Notes under the pieces: model-generated
What the model was told of the DNA's origin: nothing
The model's database searches: none
What the model saw: the letters and a program-made list of their open reading frames with translations, nothing else
Made by a program: the position numbers and the translations under genes
NCBI GenBank assembly: GCA_021739765.1
Contig: JAIPBD010000028.1
Span: forward strand, 1-48,063
From: Melioribacteraceae bacterium
Lineage (GTDB): Bacteria > Bacteroidota > Ignavibacteria > Ignavibacteriales > Melioribacteraceae
DNA length: 48,063 nt
Direction of reading: 5' to 3'
In this document: in pieces, positions 10,695 to 20,983 of the stretch
How positions within the stretch are numbered: position 1 is the stretch's first letter
How the letters are laid out: every line of letters begins with the position of its first letter

Positions 10695-12195
10695 CTATCG
10701 CAAAAATAATTTTCTTAAGTTCAAACGGTTTTATATAGTATATTAGATTTAATAGAACGAACAAAATTGTTCCAATTATTGTTTTTAGGATCATAACCTG
10801 CAAACTAAAATCGTTTGTCAAATTTAATACTATTGCAGGGAGGAATACCATTATAGTTGCTGCAAACACTGGAGGTGCAAATTTTTGAGTAAGATATTTC
10901 AATGAATTTATTTTTAATATCTTGGGCAAATAATATATATGATAGACTATAAACTGCAACAAATAGTATGCTAATGTTGATATTGCAGCAGCCTCTACAC
11001 CATATTTTGGTGCAAGAATCCACAGGATTGTTAAAGATATTATTGCATTAATGGGACTTGTGATTGTTAATAATTTTATCCTCCCAGAAGCTAGAACTAT
11101 ACTTGCGACCGCACTCAAATATAAAAATCCAAATGATAATAGCCATATCCGTAATGCTGGTACAAGATGAAGATATTCTTTCCCAACATAAAGATTAATT
11201 ATAATTTCAGAGTTTAGGTAAATTACAGCAATGATATACGATATGAAAAACCATGAATATCTAGTAGCCCCATCCATAATCTTATTTAAGGAGCCATCGT
11301 CGTTCGTTGCATATGCTTTTGCTGAAGCTGGTAGAAGTGTAGTTAAAATAACTCCATTAAATAGTGTTACACCACTTGCGATTGTGAAAATTATTTGATA
11401 ATCGGCTAATACATTTAATCCACTTGACTCCCTAAAAGCTAATACGATAGGTCTTAAGCCAAATGCAATTGATTGAGAGATCCCAATCATCAATATTCCC
11501 ATTCCATAGAAGAATACCTCTCTGAAATCTTCCCAAACCCATGCAAATTTAATCCTATAATTAACACCGGAAATTTTATACCACCTCAACAATTTGTTTG
11601 GTATGATTATGTTCCGACTCAGAAGATAGAGAACAAAATAATAGACAATGTTTACTTCAAGCCAAATGCTCAAAATTGTAACGATTATTTGTAGTACATA
11701 AGAAATTATTTTCAGTTTTGACAACCATGCAATATCCTCAAGTGAATTTAATAATTGGTCGAGAATTGAAAATGGCCAAGAGATTAGCACGGAAATCCCA
11801 CTTAATACAAGTACAATGCGGAACTCATAAATTACAACCGCATCAACTTTGAAAAAACTTATACCAAAAATTGCAAATCCAAAAAATATTAATGCATTTA
11901 ATACACCTATAATCGAAAAAAGGGAGAAACTTGTATTCGTCAAGTTTACTACAGTTTGAATATTGTTCTTTGCGATATTACTAGAAACAAATTTTACCAG
12001 ACCCTGTGGGATCCCGAGATTTGTGATATTCAAATATGAATTAAGTGAAAGGGCAAGAACAATAATTCCATATTCTAGTTTTCCATAGTATGAGAGCAAT
12101 AAAGGGACAACGATTATTTTGGATATTGAATTGATCAGGTTGCTAATAAACAACCAAGATGAATTTTTAACAATTCTATTAAATTTACTTATCAT
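10681..12195 (-). CDS. Wzx-type polysaccharide flippase (MATE/MOP superfamily)
   Basis: The 504-residue protein has 12-14 hydrophobic segments beginning with SWLFISNLINSISKIIVVPL, the usual first helix of the polysaccharide-biosynthesis (Wzx/RfbX) branch of the MOP superfamily. It would move lipid-linked repeat units across the inner membrane. A further landmark is YGKLEYGIIVLALSL near residue 37, the YG-EYG motif after helix 1. Its gene overlaps the upstream F420-hydrogenase-like gene by 4 bases and the acyltransferase by 14. Together with the Wzy and Wzz candidates, it suggests a Wzx/Wzy-dependent pathway. Confidence 0.85.
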   Translation of the reverse strand: MISKFNRIVKNSSWLFISNLINSISKIIVVPLLLSYYGKLEYGIIVLALSLNSYLNITNLGIPQGLVKFVSSNIAKNNIQTVVNLTNTSFSLFSIIGVLNALIFFGFAIFGISFFKVDAVVIYEFRIVLVLSGISVLISWPFSILDQLLNSLEDIAWLSKLKIISYVLQIIVTILSIWLEVNIVYYFVLYLLSRNIIIPNKLLRWYKISGVNYRIKFAWVWEDFREVFFYGMGILMIGISQSIAFGLRPIVLAFRESSGLNVLADYQIIFTIASGVTLFNGVILTTLLPASAKAYATNDDGSLNKIMDGATRYSWFFISYIIAVIYLNSEIIINLYVGKEYLHLVPALRIWLLSFGFLYLSAVASIVLASGRIKLLTITSPINAIISLTILWILAPKYGVEAAAISTLAYYLLQFIVYHIYYLPKILKINSLKYLTQKFAPPVFAATIMVFLPAIVLNLTNDFSLQVMILKTIIGTILFVLLNLIYYIKPFELKKIIFAIVGKI

Positions 12196-13397
12196 ATTTT
12201 GACGATTCTCTTGAGCGTCCCAAACATATTCGAAATTGTAATTTTAATTGGAATCATTCTAGATAATTTGTACAAATTGAAATTCGTAAATTTCGGATAA
12301 GATTTACCAAGTAACCGCCAGGCTATTAATCTACTCCAGACCAAGCCTTTTTTATTCAAATGGTATTTCTGAATAGTTCTCAGTTTACCAACATCAAATT
12401 TAGTCAAATTGATGGCACCAAATTCAGCTGCTGATTCAATAATTTTTTTTCCAAGATAGGTGCGTGATATAATAAGACTTTGCCCCTCTTTTTCAGAGAA
12501 ATCCGGATAACCGCTATCACTATCCCAAGCGTCACCAAAAGTGATATCAGCTGATGACCCTACACCATCCGGACATATCTTGCACCTAAACTGCAAGTGT
12601 TTGTTTAATACTTTGCCCCAAGAATCTTCATATGATAAAGAATGTTTTCTCCCCAATTTATCTATAGCGTAAGACATTCCCGGCCACCCCTCTCCTCGAT
12701 AACGGAACTCAACAACATCGCTCTTATTCAGATTAAACATACTTAGTATTTTCTCAGTACCTTTTAAGCTTGGTGTCCCCGCACATAAGAAAGAAATCAG
12801 CACAACATCCAGATCACACTTGGGGATAGAATTGAGATATTGTCTCAATGCCGAAATATCACATGGCCTTCCTACTACTACAATTTTTTTGTGATTATCG
12901 ATAATTCGGGTAATGTCAATTAACGGTGAACTAGGACTGTATCTTGAGCCGGCATTCCGCAATAACATATCATCACTTGTGCTGAAGAAGTTTGAATTTC
13001 TTGTTGCCTCGTTTACTGCCCGACCAATCTGAACAACTCCCTCATATTTCATACTGTTAATTAAATAACTTAAAACTGCACTTAAGGCCCCCCCGGATGA
13101 TCCTTTAAATCGCATTTCAGGATTTGTAGCATAGCCGGAGGCAATTGATTCGTAATTACCCCAGATTAATGAATCCTCTCTTGTACCAGCAACTGGATTT
13201 TCAACCCGAATGGCAGGACACCATTTTTTCAGTTTCTTAATTTGATTAGCATCCAATCTCTTAGATTGTTTTGCAACAAAAAAACCTGCACTGTCTTCAG
13301 TTATTTTTACAAATTCATTACCGAAAACACTCTCACATAATCCGCAACCAATACATATACTGGATTCAGAAAGATCATTGATTAAAAACTCGCTCAT
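12192..13397 (-). CDS. F420 hydrogenase/dehydrogenase beta subunit family protein
   Basis: The 401-residue protein begins with a half ferredoxin motif CIGCGLC (near 15-21) and carries the FrhB/FpoF C-terminal domain. Landmarks are FKGSSGGALSAVLSYL, VVGRPCDISALRQYL, FRYRGEGWPGM and a second cysteine cluster CKICPDGVGSSADITFGDAW. In polysaccharide loci such proteins regularly sit next to a pyruvyl transferase, as here (4-base overlap), and are thought to support an unknown redox step. No other F420 enzyme is visible, so flavin is a more likely cofactor than F420. The precise reaction is undescribed to my knowledge. Confidence 0.8.
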   Translation of the reverse strand: MSEFLINDLSESSICIGCGLCESVFGNEFVKITEDSAGFFVAKQSKRLDANQIKKLKKWCPAIRVENPVAGTREDSLIWGNYESIASGYATNPEMRFKGSSGGALSAVLSYLINSMKYEGVVQIGRAVNEATRNSNFFSTSDDMLLRNAGSRYSPSSPLIDITRIIDNHKKIVVVGRPCDISALRQYLNSIPKCDLDVVLISFLCAGTPSLKGTEKILSMFNLNKSDVVEFRYRGEGWPGMSYAIDKLGRKHSLSYEDSWGKVLNKHLQFRCKICPDGVGSSADITFGDAWDSDSGYPDFSEKEGQSLIISRTYLGKKIIESAAEFGAINLTKFDVGKLRTIQKYHLNKKGLVWSRLIAWRLLGKSYPKFTNFNLYKLSRMIPIKITISNMFGTLKRIVKI

Positions 13398-14596
13398 TTT
13401 AGAATTTCCAACAACTTATTTTCAATCTTTCGATTTTGCTTAGTAATTATTTCAAGACTAGCATGGCAGTGTTCTTTCAATTCAGATAGCTTATTAACGT
13501 ATTCATTTACCTTTGCTAACGCTTCAATCTCATCGTTCTCTCTTGCATCAATTATATAATTATACTTCAGCAAATTGACAAAGAGTCCTTCAAACTTCCT
13601 ACTATATGAAATACCAATAATTGGAACACCAGCGGAAAAGGCAGCAATACAAGCGTGCATTCTCGATCCAATTAGTAAATCCATCTCCGCAATATATGAT
13701 TTTGCCTCAACCGGACTCTTAAATGGCGGAGAAATTTCTATATTTTCGCCATCGTCGAAAGATTTTGCCAATTCTTTTATTGAAATAGAATCGTCCTCTT
13801 GTAGTGATATATTTTCACCATAAACATGGGCTATGAGATAAATTTTCAAGTCATTTTGATCTCTAAATTTACCGATCATCATTTTTACAAATTTTGCGTA
13901 ATTCATTTTTAGCCGGAACATATTATTTTCATTATAGCCTCCGCGGTAGAGTAAGCCAGAGACATTTATACCAATTTTTAATCTCTCTGATACTTTCGGA
14001 TTAGGCAAAGAATATGGCAGCGAAAAGGCAAGATCTATGTACTCATCGTAATATGTATTTATATTCCACCTAGCAAGTTCATTATAAGTTAAAGTGTCCC
14101 TAGCCATTATAGTATGTACGCTATTCAAAATATATTTTGCTAAAATTAAAGAGATTTTACCTTCGAATGGACCAATAGTTTGGGGTAGTAGAACAATCTT
14201 CTTTCGCAAAATCATAAATAGTAATTTAGATAAGCAATTGTTGAAAAATCTTTTATATCCGTAAATATCTGTAAACCCATCTCCCTGACTTAAATCAAAG
14301 ATGATATCTATATCTTTTAATTTTGAGAACACTTTAAAATTAAAGACATTATATATTCTATTCAGATAAAAGGTTTTAGAGGGAATAAAATCATAGTTAA
14401 TCGTATTCGCTTTTATACTGATGGAACCAGAATGGATATCTTTATTCTGCGTGCCAATTAAACAAAAATTGATGTTAATATTGTTATTATCAGCAATTGT
14501 TTTGAGCATATGTATAATAGAATAGGTTAGTGCATTTACACCCTGATTACCTGAGTACACTGTACCCCACAAAACGCCGATGTTGATTGAACGCAT
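13394..14596 (-). CDS. Polysaccharide pyruvyl transferase family protein (WcaK/CsaB-like)
   Basis: The 400-residue product matches the polysaccharide pyruvyl transferase family, which adds a pyruvate ketal from phosphoenolpyruvate to a sugar. Visible are GVLWGTVYSGNQGVNALTYS at the N-terminus, the FDLSQGDGFTDIYG loop, KIVLLPQTIGPF, then IGSRMHACIAAFSAGVPIIG with the catalytic-site RxHA signature near residue 315. It lies 29 bases from the Wzz-like gene and overlaps the F420-hydrogenase-like gene by 4. The surface glycan may therefore carry acidic pyruvyl groups, in line with possible sulfation from the cys genes upstream. Confidence 0.85.
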   Translation of the reverse strand: MRSINIGVLWGTVYSGNQGVNALTYSIIHMLKTIADNNNININFCLIGTQNKDIHSGSISIKANTINYDFIPSKTFYLNRIYNVFNFKVFSKLKDIDIIFDLSQGDGFTDIYGYKRFFNNCLSKLLFMILRKKIVLLPQTIGPFEGKISLILAKYILNSVHTIMARDTLTYNELARWNINTYYDEYIDLAFSLPYSLPNPKVSERLKIGINVSGLLYRGGYNENNMFRLKMNYAKFVKMMIGKFRDQNDLKIYLIAHVYGENISLQEDDSISIKELAKSFDDGENIEISPPFKSPVEAKSYIAEMDLLIGSRMHACIAAFSAGVPIIGISYSRKFEGLFVNLLKYNYIIDARENDEIEALAKVNEYVNKLSELKEHCHASLEIITKQNRKIENKLLEILK

Positions 14597-14625
14597 AAAT
14601 CCCTTGTTTAAATAGAGAGCATTAA

Positions 14626-15663
14626 TTAGGCCTGCCTTCGACTAAGGAGTGAGTTTTTTAATTTTTTAACAAATACTGGTAGTTGATATTTAACATAAAT
14701 GAAGTATATAGAACTTATTATGCTAGATAGAGTCATAACAATAAGAAAAAATAATGTTCTTCTCGGTCCACTTTTTTCGACTGGTTGTTCGGGTAACTCT
14801 CGGATGTTAAGAATTGGCGTATCTTTTATTTCAGTCAACTTTGATAATTCATATTGCTTGGTTAATTCAATATAGACTGTTTGGTAGACTTCCACATTTC
14901 TTCTTAATCTAACATAAGTTAATTGAAGCTCTGGTGAATTCTCATACAATTTATTTCTTTCAAGAAATGATTTAAGTTTATCTTCAACAATTTGTAGTGA
15001 GTCTCCGATATCAACTAATCTTTTGGAAAGGTAGCTCGTTTGTTCGGAAGCGTTAGTTTTTCTCTTTTCACGAAGATATTTATCTAGGCTGCGTGCAATT
15101 CCCACAGCAACTTCTGAAGAAAGTTTTGCCTCTGGCATTCGTATGTTAACTACCAAAATTTGACTAATTCTATCCATATTTGCAGTCACTAATTCTTCAC
15201 TCAACAATTCGTAAACGGCGAGAAATTGTTTTCTTTTTCTAAATTGTTCATTTCCCTCTTCGTCAGCTTCAACTTCATAGTATTCAATTAGATTTACAGA
15301 ATCTGGGAAACTTTCTGTTTGATATTTTGAGTAAATTATTTCTTCGAATAAAGTCTCACTTTTGAGAATATCACTATAGATATTTATTGATGTCCCACTT
15401 TCTAGGGAGACCCCCACCATTGAAGCTAGGCTAGATATTCCACTCAAGTTTGGACGCGCTGAACTAGCTTCCGGATAAATAATTAGCTTTGAATCAAAAT
15501 AAGGTTTAGCGAACAGTAATAGAAACACAGCTATGAGACAGGCTGCAATAAAATTAAATATTAGAAAAGTCTTAATATTCCGCCCTAAGGGTTCAACCAA
15601 CTTAATGGTTGCAACAAAAAAATTAAGAATTTTGTCTTCAGTAGTTTGTTTACTCTGATTCAT
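14626..15663 (-). CDS. Wzz/chain-length determinant family protein
   Basis: The 345-residue protein has one N-terminal transmembrane segment (about residues 37-52), a long periplasmic portion with coiled-coil potential around residues 195-275, a Pro-rich motif ELPEQPVEKSGPRR and a second transmembrane segment after it. That is the standard Wzz (PCP) topology, without a fused tyrosine kinase. It sets the chain length of the exported polysaccharide together with the flippase and polymerase. A 57-base gap separates it from cysQ upstream. Confidence 0.85.
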   Translation of the reverse strand: MNQSKQTTEDKILNFFVATIKLVEPLGRNIKTFLIFNFIAACLIAVFLLLFAKPYFDSKLIIYPEASSARPNLSGISSLASMVGVSLESGTSINIYSDILKSETLFEEIIYSKYQTESFPDSVNLIEYYEVEADEEGNEQFRKRKQFLAVYELLSEELVTANMDRISQILVVNIRMPEAKLSSEVAVGIARSLDKYLREKRKTNASEQTSYLSKRLVDIGDSLQIVEDKLKSFLERNKLYENSPELQLTYVRLRRNVEVYQTVYIELTKQYELSKLTEIKDTPILNIRELPEQPVEKSGPRRTLFFLIVMTLSSIISSIYFIYVKYQLPVFVKKLKNSLLSRRQA

Positions 15664-16505: not shown

Positions 16506-17225
16506 TTAGAAATCTTTGAGAGCAAACTCAACAATCTTTAAAGCAATTTTATCTGTATCGGGACTAAGATTTTCGAATTCGAGTTCCGGGTTTTTCGGGA
16601 TTTCATATTCAGTGCTAATACCGGGGAAATTAGAAATTTCGCCTTTTTTGGCTTTCTCATAAGTACCGGTAGTATCACGTTTTATACATTCTTCGATTGG
16701 GGTAGAAATGTAAACTTCAATAAAATTCTTAGCTATAGAGCGAATAAAATTTCTTGATTCTTCGAAAGGAGAAAGAAACGTGGCAATGACAAAAACTCCT
16801 TGTTCTTCAAGTTTACTCGCAAGGTAACCGACTCTTTTAATATGTTCGTTAACTTCATCGTGTGAATAGCCGGTTTCGGGGAATAGATGCCGGATACCAT
16901 GTCCATCAAGATGATCAGCTTTAAATCCTTTTTCTTTCAGAATTTGCGTTACTTTTTCACCAATTTCAGATTTTCCGGAACGAACCAAACCGGTAATCCA
17001 TATAACAGCCGGTTTTACTTCTTTCCTTCCAAATTTAATTTTATCCCATGCCCTCTCATGAAGGAAATAGATTAACATTTTTAGAAAAACTTCAATACCG
17101 CCAACGGAAATTGCAATCGTTGTATCACCAATAAAAATATATACAAGCGTAATGGTGGTGACAGTAGCGAGTATTCGCCATGAAATAGTCTTTACAACCG
17201 AACGAGCGTGAGTTTCTTTAAACAT
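16506..17225 (-). CDS. DUF2061 membrane domain fused to APS kinase
   Basis: The 239-residue protein has two parts. Residues 1 to about 65 form a DUF2061 domain: ARSVVKTISWRILATVTT followed by two hydrophobic helices and FLHERAWDKIKFG. From about 72 it is an APS kinase (CysC) with Walker A GLVRSGKS at 79-86, DGHGIRH, and the CysC-type tail segments YEKAKKGEISNFPGI and YEIPKNPEL. The usual CysC loop GLSGSGKS is changed to GLVRSGKS but still fits GxxxxGKS. A second, soluble CysC is encoded at 20369-20983. This version probably places APS kinase activity at the membrane. It is 32 bases upstream of cysQ. Confidence 0.85.
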   Translation of the reverse strand: MFKETHARSVVKTISWRILATVTTITLVYIFIGDTTIAISVGGIEVFLKMLIYFLHERAWDKIKFGRKEVKPAVIWITGLVRSGKSEIGEKVTQILKEKGFKADHLDGHGIRHLFPETGYSHDEVNEHIKRVGYLASKLEEQGVFVIATFLSPFEESRNFIRSIAKNFIEVYISTPIEECIKRDTTGTYEKAKKGEISNFPGISTEYEIPKNPELEFENLSPDTDKIALKIVEFALKDF

Positions 17226-17236
17226 GAAACAAGTGT

Positions 17237-17254
17237 AAAGGAAAAAGATAAAAG
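17237..17254. repeat. Left arm of 18-bp inverted repeat flanking S23 gene 1
   Basis: AAAGGAAAAAGATAAAAG is repeated exactly, in inverted orientation, at 17650-17667. The left side continues into tandem copies of a 7-base unit (AAAAGAT, up to 17263). Together the arms enclose one four-helix-bundle gene. Confidence 0.9.
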
Positions 17255-17267
17255 ATAAAAGATGTTT

Positions 17268-17609
17268 TTAATGTTGAATTTTTGATACGATTGAGCCTAA
17301 TATTTTTTTTAGTTGTTCTGATTCATCAATTAACTGATCTATTCTATTATCGTTCCCCAATTTCAATCTTTTACAAATTCTCAACCAATAATTTGCTTCA
17401 CGCATTTCTTTCAATGATATAAATACTTTGTTTCTAAAATCTGCTTTGGATGAAGAAGCTTGTGATTCTTCATAATTTGCGCCGGGTGAAGTACATGATT
17501 TTGATAACTGATAGATGACTACTTCAATTTCTTTTGTAATTGTCACAGTTTTTGAGAATTCAATACAATTAACCGCAAACTCAAATAACCTGCTAGATAG
17601 ATCATTCAT
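17268..17609 (-). CDS. Four-helix-bundle protein (S23/intervening-sequence family), cassette 1
   Basis: The 113-residue product is an all-helical S23/IVP-type four-helix-bundle protein. Recognisable parts are the conserved IYQLSKSCTSPGANYEES segment (about 32-49), KADFRNKVFISLKEMREANYWL (about 54-75) and a C-terminal helix. This subtype carries the QLxxSxxSxGANxxE and dFxxKxxIAxKExxEtxYWL patterns. Relatives are found within 23S rRNA intervening sequences and free in intergenic spaces, and some (Avd) assist diversity-generating retroelements. The role of the free ones is unknown. The gene is enclosed by 18-bp inverted repeats and splits the sulfate-activation genes, so it looks like an insertion. 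Confidence 0.85.
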   Translation of the reverse strand: MNDLSSRLFEFAVNCIEFSKTVTITKEIEVVIYQLSKSCTSPGANYEESQASSSKADFRNKVFISLKEMREANYWLRICKRLKLGNDNRIDQLIDESEQLKKILGSIVSKIQH

Positions 17610-17649
17610 TTTTCACTCAAAGAAAAAACAACGGCATTTCAAAGTCTTC

Positions 17650-17667
17650 CTTTTATCTTTTTCCTTT
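17650..17667. repeat. Right arm of 18-bp inverted repeat flanking S23 gene 1
   Basis: This is the exact reverse complement of 17237-17254. It sits between the cysN stop codon and S23 gene 1, within a run of CTTTTAT-like repeats (17646-17680). Confidence 0.9.
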
Positions 17668-17681
17668 TATCTTTTATCTTG

Positions 17682-18953
17682 TTAATGAATCATTCCCGCG
17701 GCAACCGTGTTGTTTGTAGCTTCATCAATTAAAACTAAACTACCGGTGAATCTATTCTTTTTGTAGTCATCGATAAACAGAGGTTTTGTGGTTCTTAATT
17801 TTACTCGGCAAATGTCGTTCATTTTTACATCCCGATCATCTTCATCGCGGACCAAATTGTTAATGTCCATTTTATAAACAACTTCTTTCACCATAGTTCT
17901 AACTTCTGCCGTAGAATGTCTTAAAGCATATTTCCCGCCAAGCTGCATCGGTCTATCGCTAAACCAACATAACATACAATCAATATCCTGAGTAACTTGG
18001 GGTTGGTTATTTGGTTTTACGATCATATCCCCACGCCCGATATCCAAATCATCTTCTAGCTCTATCGCTACAGACATCGGAGGAAATGCTTCCTCAACCA
18101 GTTTATCGTAGGCATAAATAGATTTGATTTTAGAAGAAAATCCGGAAGGCAAAATGGTGACATCTTCCCCGACTCTAAAAATACCGCTTCCAATTCTACC
18201 GGAAAATCCTCTGTAGTCATGGAATCCTTCTATTTTTTGAGGACGTAGAACATATTGAACCGGCAATCTTGGGTCCAAATGGTTATAATCGCTGGCTATG
18301 TAAATATTTTCTAATAAATGGAGTAAAGTCGATCCGTTATACCAATCCATATTTTTCGAACGGGTTACAACATTATCACCATTTAACGCGCTAATCGGCA
18401 CATATCGGACATCTTTGATATCCATTTTGGCGACAAAACCTTTAAAATCAGCAACAATTTGTTCATAGACTTCTTCCGAATAATCCACAAGATCCATTTT
18501 GTTTACACAGAGAACAAGATGAGGAATTTTAAGTAATGAAGCTATATAGGAATGTCTTTTTGTTTGTTCGATTACTCCTTGTCGGGCATCAACTAAAATT
18601 AAAGCTAAGTTTGCAGTTGAAGCGCCGGTAACCATATTCCGGGTGTATTGGATATGTCCGGGAGTATCGGCAATTATAAATTTGCGCTTTGGAGTGGCGA
18701 AGTAACGATAAGCCACGTCAATTGTAATGCCTTGTTCTCTTTCAGATTTAAGGCCATCTGTCAACAAAGCTAAATCAACATCCACTAAACCTTTTTTCTC
18801 ACTTGATTTTTTTACAGCATCAAGCTGGTCTTCAAAAATTGATTTACTGTCAAATAATAACCGACCGATTAAAGTACTTTTACCATCATCAACACTTCCG
18901 GCAGTAGTAAACCGAAGCAATTCCATATCAAGATATGAGTTTTTTGTTGTCAT
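17682..18953 (-). CDS. cysN: Sulfate adenylyltransferase GTPase subunit CysN
   Basis: The 423-residue protein is the regulatory GTPase of ATP sulfurylase, which with CysD makes APS from ATP and sulfate. G motifs are GSVDDGKS at 19-26, DTPGH at 96-100 and NKMD at 151-154, followed by the EF-Tu-like domains II and III. The reading frame is open to a TTG at 18977. I choose ATG at 18953 because AGGA lies 8 bases before it and the protein then begins MTTKNSYLDMELLRFTT. No APS-kinase domain is fused at the C-terminus, in contrast to CysNC. It is separated from cysD by S23 cassette 2. Confidence 0.93.
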   Translation of the reverse strand: MTTKNSYLDMELLRFTTAGSVDDGKSTLIGRLLFDSKSIFEDQLDAVKKSSEKKGLVDVDLALLTDGLKSEREQGITIDVAYRYFATPKRKFIIADTPGHIQYTRNMVTGASTANLALILVDARQGVIEQTKRHSYIASLLKIPHLVLCVNKMDLVDYSEEVYEQIVADFKGFVAKMDIKDVRYVPISALNGDNVVTRSKNMDWYNGSTLLHLLENIYIASDYNHLDPRLPVQYVLRPQKIEGFHDYRGFSGRIGSGIFRVGEDVTILPSGFSSKIKSIYAYDKLVEEAFPPMSVAIELEDDLDIGRGDMIVKPNNQPQVTQDIDCMLCWFSDRPMQLGGKYALRHSTAEVRTMVKEVVYKMDINNLVRDEDDRDVKMNDICRVKLRTTKPLFIDDYKKNRFTGSLVLIDEATNNTVAAGMIH

Positions 18954-18990
18954 TTTTTTTCCTAAAGATTTAATCAACTACTCAAAAAAA

Positions 18991-19020
18991 GCGTTAAGCG
19001 TTTAGCGTAGGGCGTTCAGC
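18991..19020. repeat. Tandem/inverted repeat left of S23 gene 2
   Basis: Three imperfect copies of a GCGTT(A/T)A-type unit run through this stretch (GCGTTAA, GCGTTTA, GCGTAGG, then GCGTTCAGC). The last nine bases, GCGTTCAGC at 19012-19020, recur inverted at 19436-19444 on the other side of the S23 gene. Confidence 0.75.
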
Positions 19021-19053: not shown

Positions 19054-19425
19054 TTAACTTTCTAAAGATTTTTTAAAACCATATAGAATTTTTGAGACTT
19101 CTGTTGTAATCATAGAGTACTCTGAATATTCATTCTCATCCAAGTAGTTTAGTTCTCGCGAGAGTAACAATAAATATTTAAGTTCTTCAAGCGAACCGTG
19201 GGCAATATTCAGGAAATTTAGAAACTCTTTTCTGCTTCTCCTTGCATGCCCCTCAACAATATTAGCCGGAACAGAGATAGCTGCTCTGCGAATTTGAGAC
19301 GTTATTCCAAATTTTTCTTCAGATGGAAAGCTTGCAGTATCTTTATATACTTGTAGTACCAAATTATGCGCTTTTTGCCAAACTATTAAATCATGAAAAC
19401 TCTTTACGCTTTCTTTCATTTTCAT
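19054..19425 (-). CDS. Four-helix-bundle protein (S23/intervening-sequence family), cassette 2
   Basis: The 123-residue product is the classic S23/IVP subtype. It has FHDLIVWQKAHNLVL near the start, FPSEEKFGITSQIRRAA, then ISVPANIVEGHARRS and EFLNFLNIAHGSLEEL. It is only distantly similar to the other copy at 17268-17609, so the two are not a recent duplication. A second ATG at 19419 has better spacing (8 bases) to the GGAG site than the first at 19425. The gene sits between cysD and cysN with GCGTT-type repeats on both sides. Function in free form is unknown; rRNA intervening sequences and Avd proteins are the known relatives. Confidence 0.88.
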   Translation of the reverse strand: MKMKESVKSFHDLIVWQKAHNLVLQVYKDTASFPSEEKFGITSQIRRAAISVPANIVEGHARRSRKEFLNFLNIAHGSLEELKYLLLLSRELNYLDENEYSEYSMITTEVSKILYGFKKSLES

Positions 19426-19435
19426 TCTCCATAAC

Positions 19436-19444
19436 GCTGAACGC
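19436..19444. repeat. Inverted repeat right of S23 gene 2
   Basis: GCTGAACGC is the reverse complement of 19012-19020. It lies in a short cluster of CGCT-type units (AACGCTGAACGCTCACCGCT) between cysD and the S23 gene. Confidence 0.7.
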
Positions 19445-19463
19445 TCACCGCTTGAAGGCTAAT

Positions 19464-20372
19464 CTAAAAATATCCCTTCACCTTTCTATCTTCCATTGCG
19501 GTTTCGGAGCGTTTGTCGTCTACTCGTCCGCCTCTTTCCGTAACACGAGTCGCCGCGACTTCTTGAATAATATCTTCGATAGATTCAGCTTTCGACTCCC
19601 AGACGCCGGTGCAAGTCATATCACCAACAGTCCGGCACCGAACTATCCGTTCCTCAATCTGTTCATCTTCATCCAAATTTAGATACGGTGAAAATGCCAG
19701 TAATAATCCATCACGTTCTATAACTTTTCTTTTATGTGAGAAATAGATAGAAGGAATCGGAATATTTTCGATTGCTATATATTGCCAGACATCCATTTCA
19801 GTCCAATTACTTAACGGAAAAACGCGGAAATGTTCACCCATGTTTTTCTTGCCATTAAAAATATTCCACAATTCAGGGCGCTGATTTTTAGGGTCCCATT
19901 GACCAAATTCATCACGATGCGAGAAAAATCTTTCTTTAGCGCGTGCTTTTTCTTCATCTCTTCTAGCTCCGCCAATGGCACAATCAAATTTGTGTTCTTC
20001 CAAAGCATCAAGAAGTGTTGTTGTCTGAAGTGCATTTCTGGATGCGTGTTTGCCGTGCTCTTCGGCGACCCTTCCCTTATCAATTGATTCCTGAACGGAT
20101 GCGACAATTAAACGTGCGTTAATAGTTTTTACGAATTCATCTCTATACTCAATTGTTTCATCAAAATTATGCCCTGTATCTACGTGCATTAAAGGGTAGG
20201 GAATTTTTGAAGGAAAAAAAGCTTTGCGGGATAACCAACCGAGTACAATTGAATCTTTCCCACCGGAGAATAACAAAGCCGGATTTTCAAACTGCGCGGC
20301 AACTTCCCGTAAAATATAGACAGCTTCCGATTCAAGTTCACGCAAGTGAGTGATATAATATTTGTCCATCAT
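19464..20372 (-). CDS. cysD: Sulfate adenylyltransferase subunit CysD
   Basis: This 302-residue protein is the catalytic subunit of ATP sulfurylase, in the PAPS-reductase/PP-loop fold. It has the PP-loop SGGKDS at 36-41, the [20 protein letters not shown] segment, and [19 protein letters not shown]. The C-terminal end is DRKVKGYF, as in other CysD proteins. It overlaps cysC by 4 bases (ATGA), so the two are translationally coupled. It works with CysN, whose gene is separated only by an S23 cassette. Confidence 0.95.
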
Positions 20373-20983
20373 AATTTCACTATATATTTATTATTTATTA
20401 AATAACTGATTATCATTTCCACATTTTTATCCAACGAATTTCCGTCACTATTAGTTATTACTAATTCTGGATTTTGGGGTGGTTCGTAAGGCGAATCTAA
20501 ACCGGTAAAATTTTTAATTTCACCGGCTCTGGCTTTTTTATATAATCCTTTTGGGTCTCGTTTTTCACAACTTTCTAAATCAGAGTCGACAAATATCTCA
20601 ATAAATTGTTTATTATCCAGAAGAGCTCGAACCATTTGCCGATCTTTTATGAAAGGTGAGATAAATGCTGTGAGCACGATCAATCCGGAATCAACAAAAA
20701 GTTTAGAAACTTCCCCAATCCTTCTAATATTTTCTACACGATCAACTTCTGAAAAACCGAGGTCTTTATTTAAACCGTGGCGAATATTATCGCCATCGAG
20801 AAGGTAAGTATGATTACCATTTTCGAAGAGCCGTTTCTCTACTTCATTGGCAATCGTCGATTTACCACTTCCGGAAAGTCCTGTAAACCAGAGACACGCA
20901 GCTTTTTGGTTCTTTTGAGATTCCCTTTTTAAACTTTCAACAGTAGGTGAATGCCAGACAATATTTTCAACAGGTTTTATCAA
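20369..20983 (-). CDS. cysC: Adenylylsulfate kinase CysC
   Basis: This 204-residue APS kinase phosphorylates APS to PAPS. It has Walker A GLSGSGKS at 35-42, [40 protein letters not shown] and APS-site residues typical of CysC. It is the first gene of the sulfate-activation module, 44 bases after the SLBB export gene. No PAPS reductase or sulfite reductase is present in the window, so the PAPS is probably for sulfation rather than cysteine synthesis. This is an inference from context. Confidence 0.95.

Follow-up and report, generated by a model that had tools for sequence, protein, structure and literature searches.

S23 genes between inverted heptamer arrays: candidate minimal insertion elements in a cys operon and in many phyla

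Both the S23 protein family and the S23-bearing intervening sequence of rRNA genes are already known. In Coxiella, according to the parts of the report available to us, the rRNA intervening sequence is 428 nt long and carries an S23 open reading frame between terminal inverted repeats, with a 28-bp stem; it is thought to have been acquired horizontally, and the function of its protein is left open there (PMC4990558). Open reading frames of the 23S_rRNA_IVP type are also described, in the available part of a second report, in rRNA insertions of CPR bacteria (PMC11270868).

A separate set of reports concerns heptanucleotide repeats: GGGAATC in Xanthomonas, GGGGA(C/T)T in Nostoc and TAACTGA in Beggiatoaceae (PMC4692102, PMC4679880). 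For TAACTGA, a repeat-binding protein was suggested as the mobile agent (PMC4679880). The available sections of both papers leave the role of these abundant repeats open (PMC4692102, PMC4679880).

Two S23 cassettes in one cys operon

We analyzed a 48,063-nucleotide stretch of a Melioribacteraceae genome (G000; the whole stretch is called the window below). It contains two S23 genes, S23-A and S23-B, each between inverted arrays of a short word and both within a cys operon. The features are as follows.

16506..17225, minus strand: cysC-type gene, a fusion of DUF2061 and APS kinase (Pfam), the downstream host gene
17237..17263, plus strand: arm 3' of S23-A, AAAGGAAAAAGATAAAAGATAAAAGAT, a heptamer array (read from the sequence; lag-7 segment 17220-17263)
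17268..17609, minus strand: S23-A, a four-helix-bundle gene of the S23 / 23S rRNA-intervening-sequence type, 113 aa (PF05635, TIGR02436, PDB 2rld)
17647..17680, minus strand: arm 5' of S23-A, the inverted partner, with two TTCCTTTTATCTTT units on the plus strand (sequence; lag-7)
17682..18977, minus strand: cysN, sulfate adenylyltransferase GTPase subunit (name inferred; Pfam GTP_EFTU), between both cassettes
18990..19020, plus strand: arm 3' of S23-B, AGCGTTAAGCGTTTAGCGTAGGGCGTTCAGC, a heptamer array (sequence; lag-7)
19054..19425, minus strand: S23-B, the second S23 gene, 123 aa, between cysD and cysN (PF05635 138.3 bits, TIGR02436 133 bits)
19433..19459, minus strand: arm 5' of S23-B, AACGCTGAACGCTCACCGCTTGAAGGC on the plus strand, the inverted partner (sequence)
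19464..20372, minus strand: cysD, the upstream host gene (name inferred from its place and conserved pairing with cysN)

The first-pass annotation had placed an exact 18-bp inverted repeat around an S23 gene, and both copies were found: the 18-mer AAAGGAAAAAGATAAAAG occupies 17237-17254 and recurs, perfectly inverted, at 17650-17667. The enclosed gene scored above the cut-offs of both family profiles (PF05635, 57 bits with a cut-off of 33.8; TIGR02436, 77.2 bits with a cut-off of 24) and matched PDB 2rld in phmmer at 4e-13, which confirms the proposed family. The extra tandem AAAAGAT copies were also present, in the form of longer lag-7 arrays of a degenerate, inverted heptamer (17220-17263 and 17650-17680) that the annotation did not mention and that include the 18-mer. 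Since the 18-mer is only part of these two arrays, we regard the tandem copies as the main feature of the S23-A arms. The sequence AAAAGATAAAAG occurs 4 times in the window, each time at the S23-A cassette, compared to 0.10 copies expected from dinucleotide shuffles (0/100 shuffles reach 4). These shuffles, together with the mismatched-pair and neighboring-gene controls given below, argue against a chance palindrome.

The 5' arm of the cassette ends one base from the cysN stop codon (17682-17684), and the 3'-side arm is 11 bases from the cysC start codon. S23-A is the sole gene inside the arms, and no transposase, recombinase or reverse transcriptase gene lies there. S23-B is 1.4 kb away and has a different arm word, GCGTTCA; because it lies on the other side of cysN, that gene is bracketed by two S23 cassettes. 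The cysN protein is 69.6-81.3% identical to those of four relatives. In G028, G002, G014 and G078, cysD and cysN are at most ~90 bp apart with neither S23 nor arrays between them, at ~70% DNA identity. An empty counterpart of the S23-A site was not found among the 17 loci compared, in none of which (0/17) cysN adjoins cysC. The operon also holds two APS-kinase-like genes, at 20369-20983 and 16506-17225 (the DUF2061 fusion); the former is so called only from its similarity to 16506-17225 in relatives.

A gene that is always at this place would have weakened the reading of the cassette as an autonomous unit. This is not the case, since the genome contains 9 PF05635 matches, 8 of them elsewhere, although many S23 sites are common to several genera. 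When the flanks of the genome's S23 genes were inspected, the layout was plain at L005 (hexamers TTAGTC) and L006 (CAATTA-type units) and weak at L002, L003 and L007. Lag-7 arrays without S23 also occur in this genome: 400 kb lying apart from the listed S23 genes contained 6, the majority of which belong to a single dispersed repeat and a pair of linked genes. Heptamer tracts of AAGATAAAAG without S23 occur on contig C5 (L298 18580-19290; L301 12840-13440 and 15400-15960), partly within a dispersed repeat of several hundred bases that has three occurrences in the stretches examined. In L301, two paralogous, lipoprotein-like ORFs (11637-13010 and 14102-15595) contain heptamer-like tracts in the N-terminal part that encode a Leu-rich stretch.

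Arm words and arm matching in other genomes

To sample S23 genes more broadly we used two sets. The 58 genomes of the family hold 369 PF05635 matches, and the related set was taken from the best-scoring part of these (at least ~93 bits); it also takes in a few genomes from other families of the order, and weak S23 types are under-sampled in it. A home-made profile gave 160 hits, 149 of them unique and 141 with both flanks, and the 125 of at least 90 aa were used. The many-phyla set comprises 87 intact S23 genes from the best 80 of 241 relatives of S23-B in a scan of species genomes, and it therefore leans to the S23-B type. For each gene, we scored the best alignment of the upstream flank with the reverse complement of the downstream flank, with a threshold of 30; flanks in the related set were 200 bp long.

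Scores of at least 30 were obtained for 58 of the 125 related S23 genes (the best-scoring part of the 369 matches), compared to 1.64% of 5000 mismatched arm pairs, 3/125 in direct orientation and 1/146 neighboring non-S23 genes. Similar results were obtained for 45 of the 87 many-phyla genes (from the best 80 of 241), where 1.65% of 2610 mismatched pairs and 10/87 in direct orientation reached the threshold. The genes below it number 67/125 in the related set and 42/87 in the many-phyla set (best 80 of 241 S23-B relatives); some escape the test because one arm runs into the 3' end of the gene, a situation seen in L276 and L277. Flank self-identity in the related set peaked at lag 7 (0.377/0.371 compared to 0.294/0.291 in controls), with echoes at 14, 21 and 28. 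Of the 125 S23 genes, 31 had a strong lag-7 array in the upstream flank and 34 in the downstream flank, compared to 5 and 7 of 146 controls.

The word varied widely: GAGTGAC in Acidobacteria, AGTGGCC in Poribacteria, TTAGGGC in Brevundimonas and AGGGATC in Terriglobia, where a second copy in the same genome had the word CAGTTGA (score 94). Cyanobacterial plasmids carried arms of (TAGGGAG)n, (AGGGTGT)n and (AGGTGAC)n, and one plasmid copy (L278) had no arms that could be found by inspection. PF05635 matches were present in 232/296 Bacteroidota genomes, and copy number reached 31 matches per genome among the 58 family genomes; the genome with 31 (G015) has 4.1 Mb and no reverse transcriptase match. 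S23 insertions were found within unrelated operons, including ribonucleotide reductase, conjugation and cas genes. Two plasmids carry S23 within a CRISPR operon, that of Anabaena sp. 90 (L279) between cas6 and cas4 and that of Picosynechococcus (L317) between cas10 and a cmr3-type gene; the upstream arm of the Anabaena cassette has ~40 units. Searches with PADLOC and for phage gave no match.

Beneath this variation, 201 phased arms from 127 cassettes gave the consensus unit nAGwnnT, 20 sd above a column-permuted null. This form of the usual heptamer applies to the coding strand of the 5' arm, read in the direction of the gene. Arm polarity relative to the gene was kept, with G>C on the coding strand in 92/103 and C>G in 8. 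Among the 135 cassettes for which a period could be called by a score and margin threshold, the unit length was 7 in 108, 8 in 16, 6 in 5, 9 in 4, and 10 or 11 in 2. On the S23 protein tree, unit length changed 17 times compared to 24.1 (sd 0.9) when shuffled, and 0/300 shuffles were as low.

Cassettes at syntenic sites formed 21 groups, many of them across genera. In these groups, 47% of 91 arm pairs within a cassette scored at least 30, compared to 12% of 598 pairs between orthologous cassettes; same-side flanks of orthologous cassettes reached this score in 58% of 598, a value that is not comparable with the 47% because those stretches include homologous coding sequence. A cassette's own right arm was the unique best partner of its left arm in 25/60 (permuted mean 6.8, maximum 16 in 2000 permutations). 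Outside shared sites, word distance fell weakly with protein similarity (r -0.145; permuted sd 0.037, minimum of 500 permutations -0.130). Shared descent explains part of the agreement of unit length and word with the protein tree, and could by itself produce it. Even so, the agreement indicates that a gene and its arms move as one.

The median lag-7 segment is 34 nt, or about five heptamers, and the PDB entries of two relatives, 2rld and 2gsc, have five chains apiece. Both S23 and Avd proteins are pentameric. The match between five units and five chains may or may not be coincidence. S23 has a net charge of no more than about +2 to +3, a point against binding of the repeats. The distance from the 5' arm to the start codon is short, with quartiles of 15-42 bp in one set and 27-70 bp in the other.

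One possibility for these inverted arms is an RNA-level intervening sequence: they would pair in the polycistronic mRNA, RNase III would cut, and the S23 piece would be removed or the transcript split. The protein family and the stem-loop layout are those of the rRNA intervening sequences as described in the available part of PMC4990558, a likeness on which the first-pass annotation had remarked, and the terminal inverted repeats of S23-A can form a stem; the fold predicted for this cassette has its two arms paired. S23 also lies between co-directional genes, in their direction, in 184/206 cases compared to 118/164 control genes and 35/59 small controls, which would suit an RNA role or just mark where insertions survive. 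The rRNA setting itself was rejected, as S23-A is located between cysN and cysC rather than inside a 23S or 16S rRNA gene, and an Rfam scan of 39 S23 sources returned two tRNAs and one 5S rRNA and no rRNA enclosing S23. If an RNA stem were selected, mismatches between arms should favor G-U in the sense RNA; no such bias was seen in 163 cassettes (221 vs 243 transitions, p 0.33). Both window cassettes folded like shuffled sequences (z -0.03 and -0.66), and a fixed unit length and word polarity are unnecessary for a stem. The likeness in layout stands, while the RNA stem as a selected feature is weakened by both tests, and we consider this explanation unlikely. The absence of a G-U bias and the shuffle-like folding lead us to prefer recognition of the arms by the S23 protein.

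Filled and empty sites

In relatives, sites that are alike in all else (flanks ~90-99% identical) had either both the gene and its arms or neither. At the trbI locus of cyanobacterial conjugative plasmids, the empty form (L302, L303, L312) reads AAAAAGTAATTAACAAAT and has no heptamers; the filled form (L276, L305) reads AAAAAGTAAT, arm, S23, arm, GTAATTAACAAAT, with a 5-bp duplication, GTAAT. Two variants of this locus carry a decayed S23 (L304) and an S23-less heptamer palindrome (L313). Two plasmids of one Nostoc strain show a reciprocal pattern, in which a site filled on one is empty on the other and vice versa; flank identity there is 91-99%. In Flavobacterium, a single match covers the entire 2.4 kb query in 5/121 genomes, while the close relatives L352 and L354 have no cassette and flanks 91-96% identical. 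Of 30 Flavobacterium loci, 20 had a readable junction: L367 shows an apparent two-unit remnant, and L349, L356, L364 and L365 have left-arm-like units and another repeat. This intergenic site looks as if it were an insertion hot spot; another palindromic repeat, CATAGAAACATAG...CTATGTTTCTATG, occupies it in L349, L356, L357, L360, L362-L365 and L368.

These pairs in near-identical cyanobacterial plasmids and Flavobacterium genomes suggest that gene and arms enter together, and we infer that the difference is gain rather than precise loss. Relatives thus show an empty site filled by a defined unit, which is not seen for the S23-A site itself, so that the autonomous look ascribed to the cassette is supported by the relatives, with no empty counterpart at S23-A among the 17 loci. 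Had the repeats persisted where the gene is lacking, that view would have been weaker. They did not at the clean empty sites examined, though S23-less inverted heptamer pairs and remnants do exist.

S23-less pairs occur on the Nostoc plasmid pNsp_a, where 13 heptamer arrays within 50 kb share a single family of words (CAGAATT, CAGGAGT). Paired by eye, these form 6 convergent pairs, one nested around another and one enclosing S23. This is the pattern expected for candidate elements dependent on a resident S23.

Target duplication was clear at one locus (GTAAT, trbI) and compatible at one more, and was not seen at four sites (L280 site 2, L273, L315 and the Flavobacterium site); the L315 insertion lost ~17 bp of host sequence. 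In 68 older insertions there was no duplication signal (5-mers 0.441 vs 0.385 permuted, with 62/400 permutations as high), which weakens the case for a general fixed-length duplication in old insertions.

S23 is under purifying selection. Values of dN/dS were 0.05-0.11 for Flavobacterium orthologues (one pair without any amino-acid change) and 0.10-0.15 for cyanobacterial copies, ranges that leave out two near-identical pairs with dS ~0.01 (values 0 and 0.86). It could be speculated from this selection that S23 is an autoregulated resident gene, whose product binds RNA or DNA, with the arms as operator arrays and the gene mostly inherited with its operon. The 21 groups of cassettes at syntenic sites and the place of the 5' arm near the start codon fit such a gene. 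On the other hand, up to 31 S23 matches in one genome, the filled and empty differences between relatives, the S23-less pairs and the insertions in unrelated operons do not, and we regard this explanation as rather improbable.

A proposed element and its known counterparts

We propose that the S23-A cassette is probably one of a family of minimal insertion elements spread over many bacterial phyla, each consisting of one S23 gene and two inverted short-word arrays. The elements are ~430-600 bp, longer where the arrays are long. In the proposed mechanism, an S23 oligomer would bind both of its own arms at their repeat units and join the ends, and an enzyme from the host or from another element would make the strand transfer. 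Unit number would change by slippage, and copying from one inverted repeat to the other as the DNA replicates would preserve the likeness of the arms. Insertion would be tolerated in gaps between operon genes, as in the cys operon.

As to the enzyme, a RAYT/Y1 transposase could move the cassette in trans, as a REPIN-like element. Y1_Tnp occurs in 49/58 family genomes and its copy number correlates with that of S23 (Spearman 0.61); genome size correlates with both S23 and Y1 numbers (0.47 and 0.51). However, of 20 Y1 loci, the 19 with both flanks had no lag-7 arrays there (0/19) and other inverted repeats of at least 30 in 3/19, so that S23 ends are unlike RAYT flanks and RAYT was rejected as owner of the arms. 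Eight genomes have S23 but no Y1 match, and Y1 chemistry does not account for a 5-bp duplication such as that seen at one site. Movement by RAYT is thus quite improbable.

By analogy with Avd, the S23 homologue of diversity-generating retroelements, a reverse transcriptase might act in trans. S23-B matches bAvd (Pfam) and Avd (NCBIfam) weakly, below both curated cut-offs, and S23-A gave no such match. Reverse transcriptases were found in 18/58 family genomes and neither in the genome of the window, which has 9 S23 matches and no RVT_1 match, nor in G015 with its 31; their counts did not correlate with those of S23 (Spearman 0.09, p 0.48). On this distribution and the absent correlation the idea was rejected, and we hold it to be highly improbable.

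In a broader and more tentative reading, S23 elements might be a new class of mobile element across phyla and rank with the smallest that encode a protein. Each lineage would have its own S23, which would read that lineage's 6-9-nt word in the arrays at the two ends; with their S23-less derivatives these elements might be a main source of the long-unexplained heptanucleotide repeats. Among the open-access literature matches listed, a coverage outside which most subscription papers fall, none links S23 genes to heptamer arrays. To our knowledge, the function of S23 proteins is still open. The inverted arrays offer a concrete candidate ligand for the family, the cassette pattern may reveal what it acts on, and the tie between gene and arrays makes tests of binding and mobility straightforward. 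These elements also offer an explanation for the abundant heptanucleotide repeats, whose role the available sections of PMC4692102 and PMC4679880 leave open.

Like the S23 arms, the known heptanucleotide repeats are seven-base tandem arrays and mostly intergenic, and the convergent pairs on pNsp_a recall those of Xanthomonas GGGAATC, of which 70 and 75 cases are given (PMC4692102, PMC4679880, available portions; pair counts from the former). Neither paper uses the terms "S23" or "four helix" in its main text. The GGGAATC pattern was present in 1/369 genomes of one class (G740), where L268 has GGGAATC arrays as a convergent pair ~50 bp apart. The single S23 match of G740 has no GGGAATC arms. 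A link of Xanthomonas GGGAATC to S23 is therefore unsupported, as the lone GGGAATC-rich genome lacks such S23 arms.

REPIN/RAYT systems and MITEs are, like S23 cassettes, small inverted elements without their own transposase. In contrast to them, S23 cassettes carry a conserved non-transposase gene, end in degenerate arrays and have a word that varies between cassettes. Avd of diversity-generating retroelements belongs to a related four-helix-bundle family, as the bAvd and Avd matches of S23-B indicate, but S23-B remains below both curated cut-offs and sits in a genome without a reverse transcriptase match. With the rRNA intervening sequences, as far as the available part of their description goes (PMC4990558), the window cassettes share the protein family and an open reading frame within inverted repeats that could pair. 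They differ in lying in protein-coding operons, in arms that are arrays of a short unit, and in showing no sign of selection for an RNA stem.
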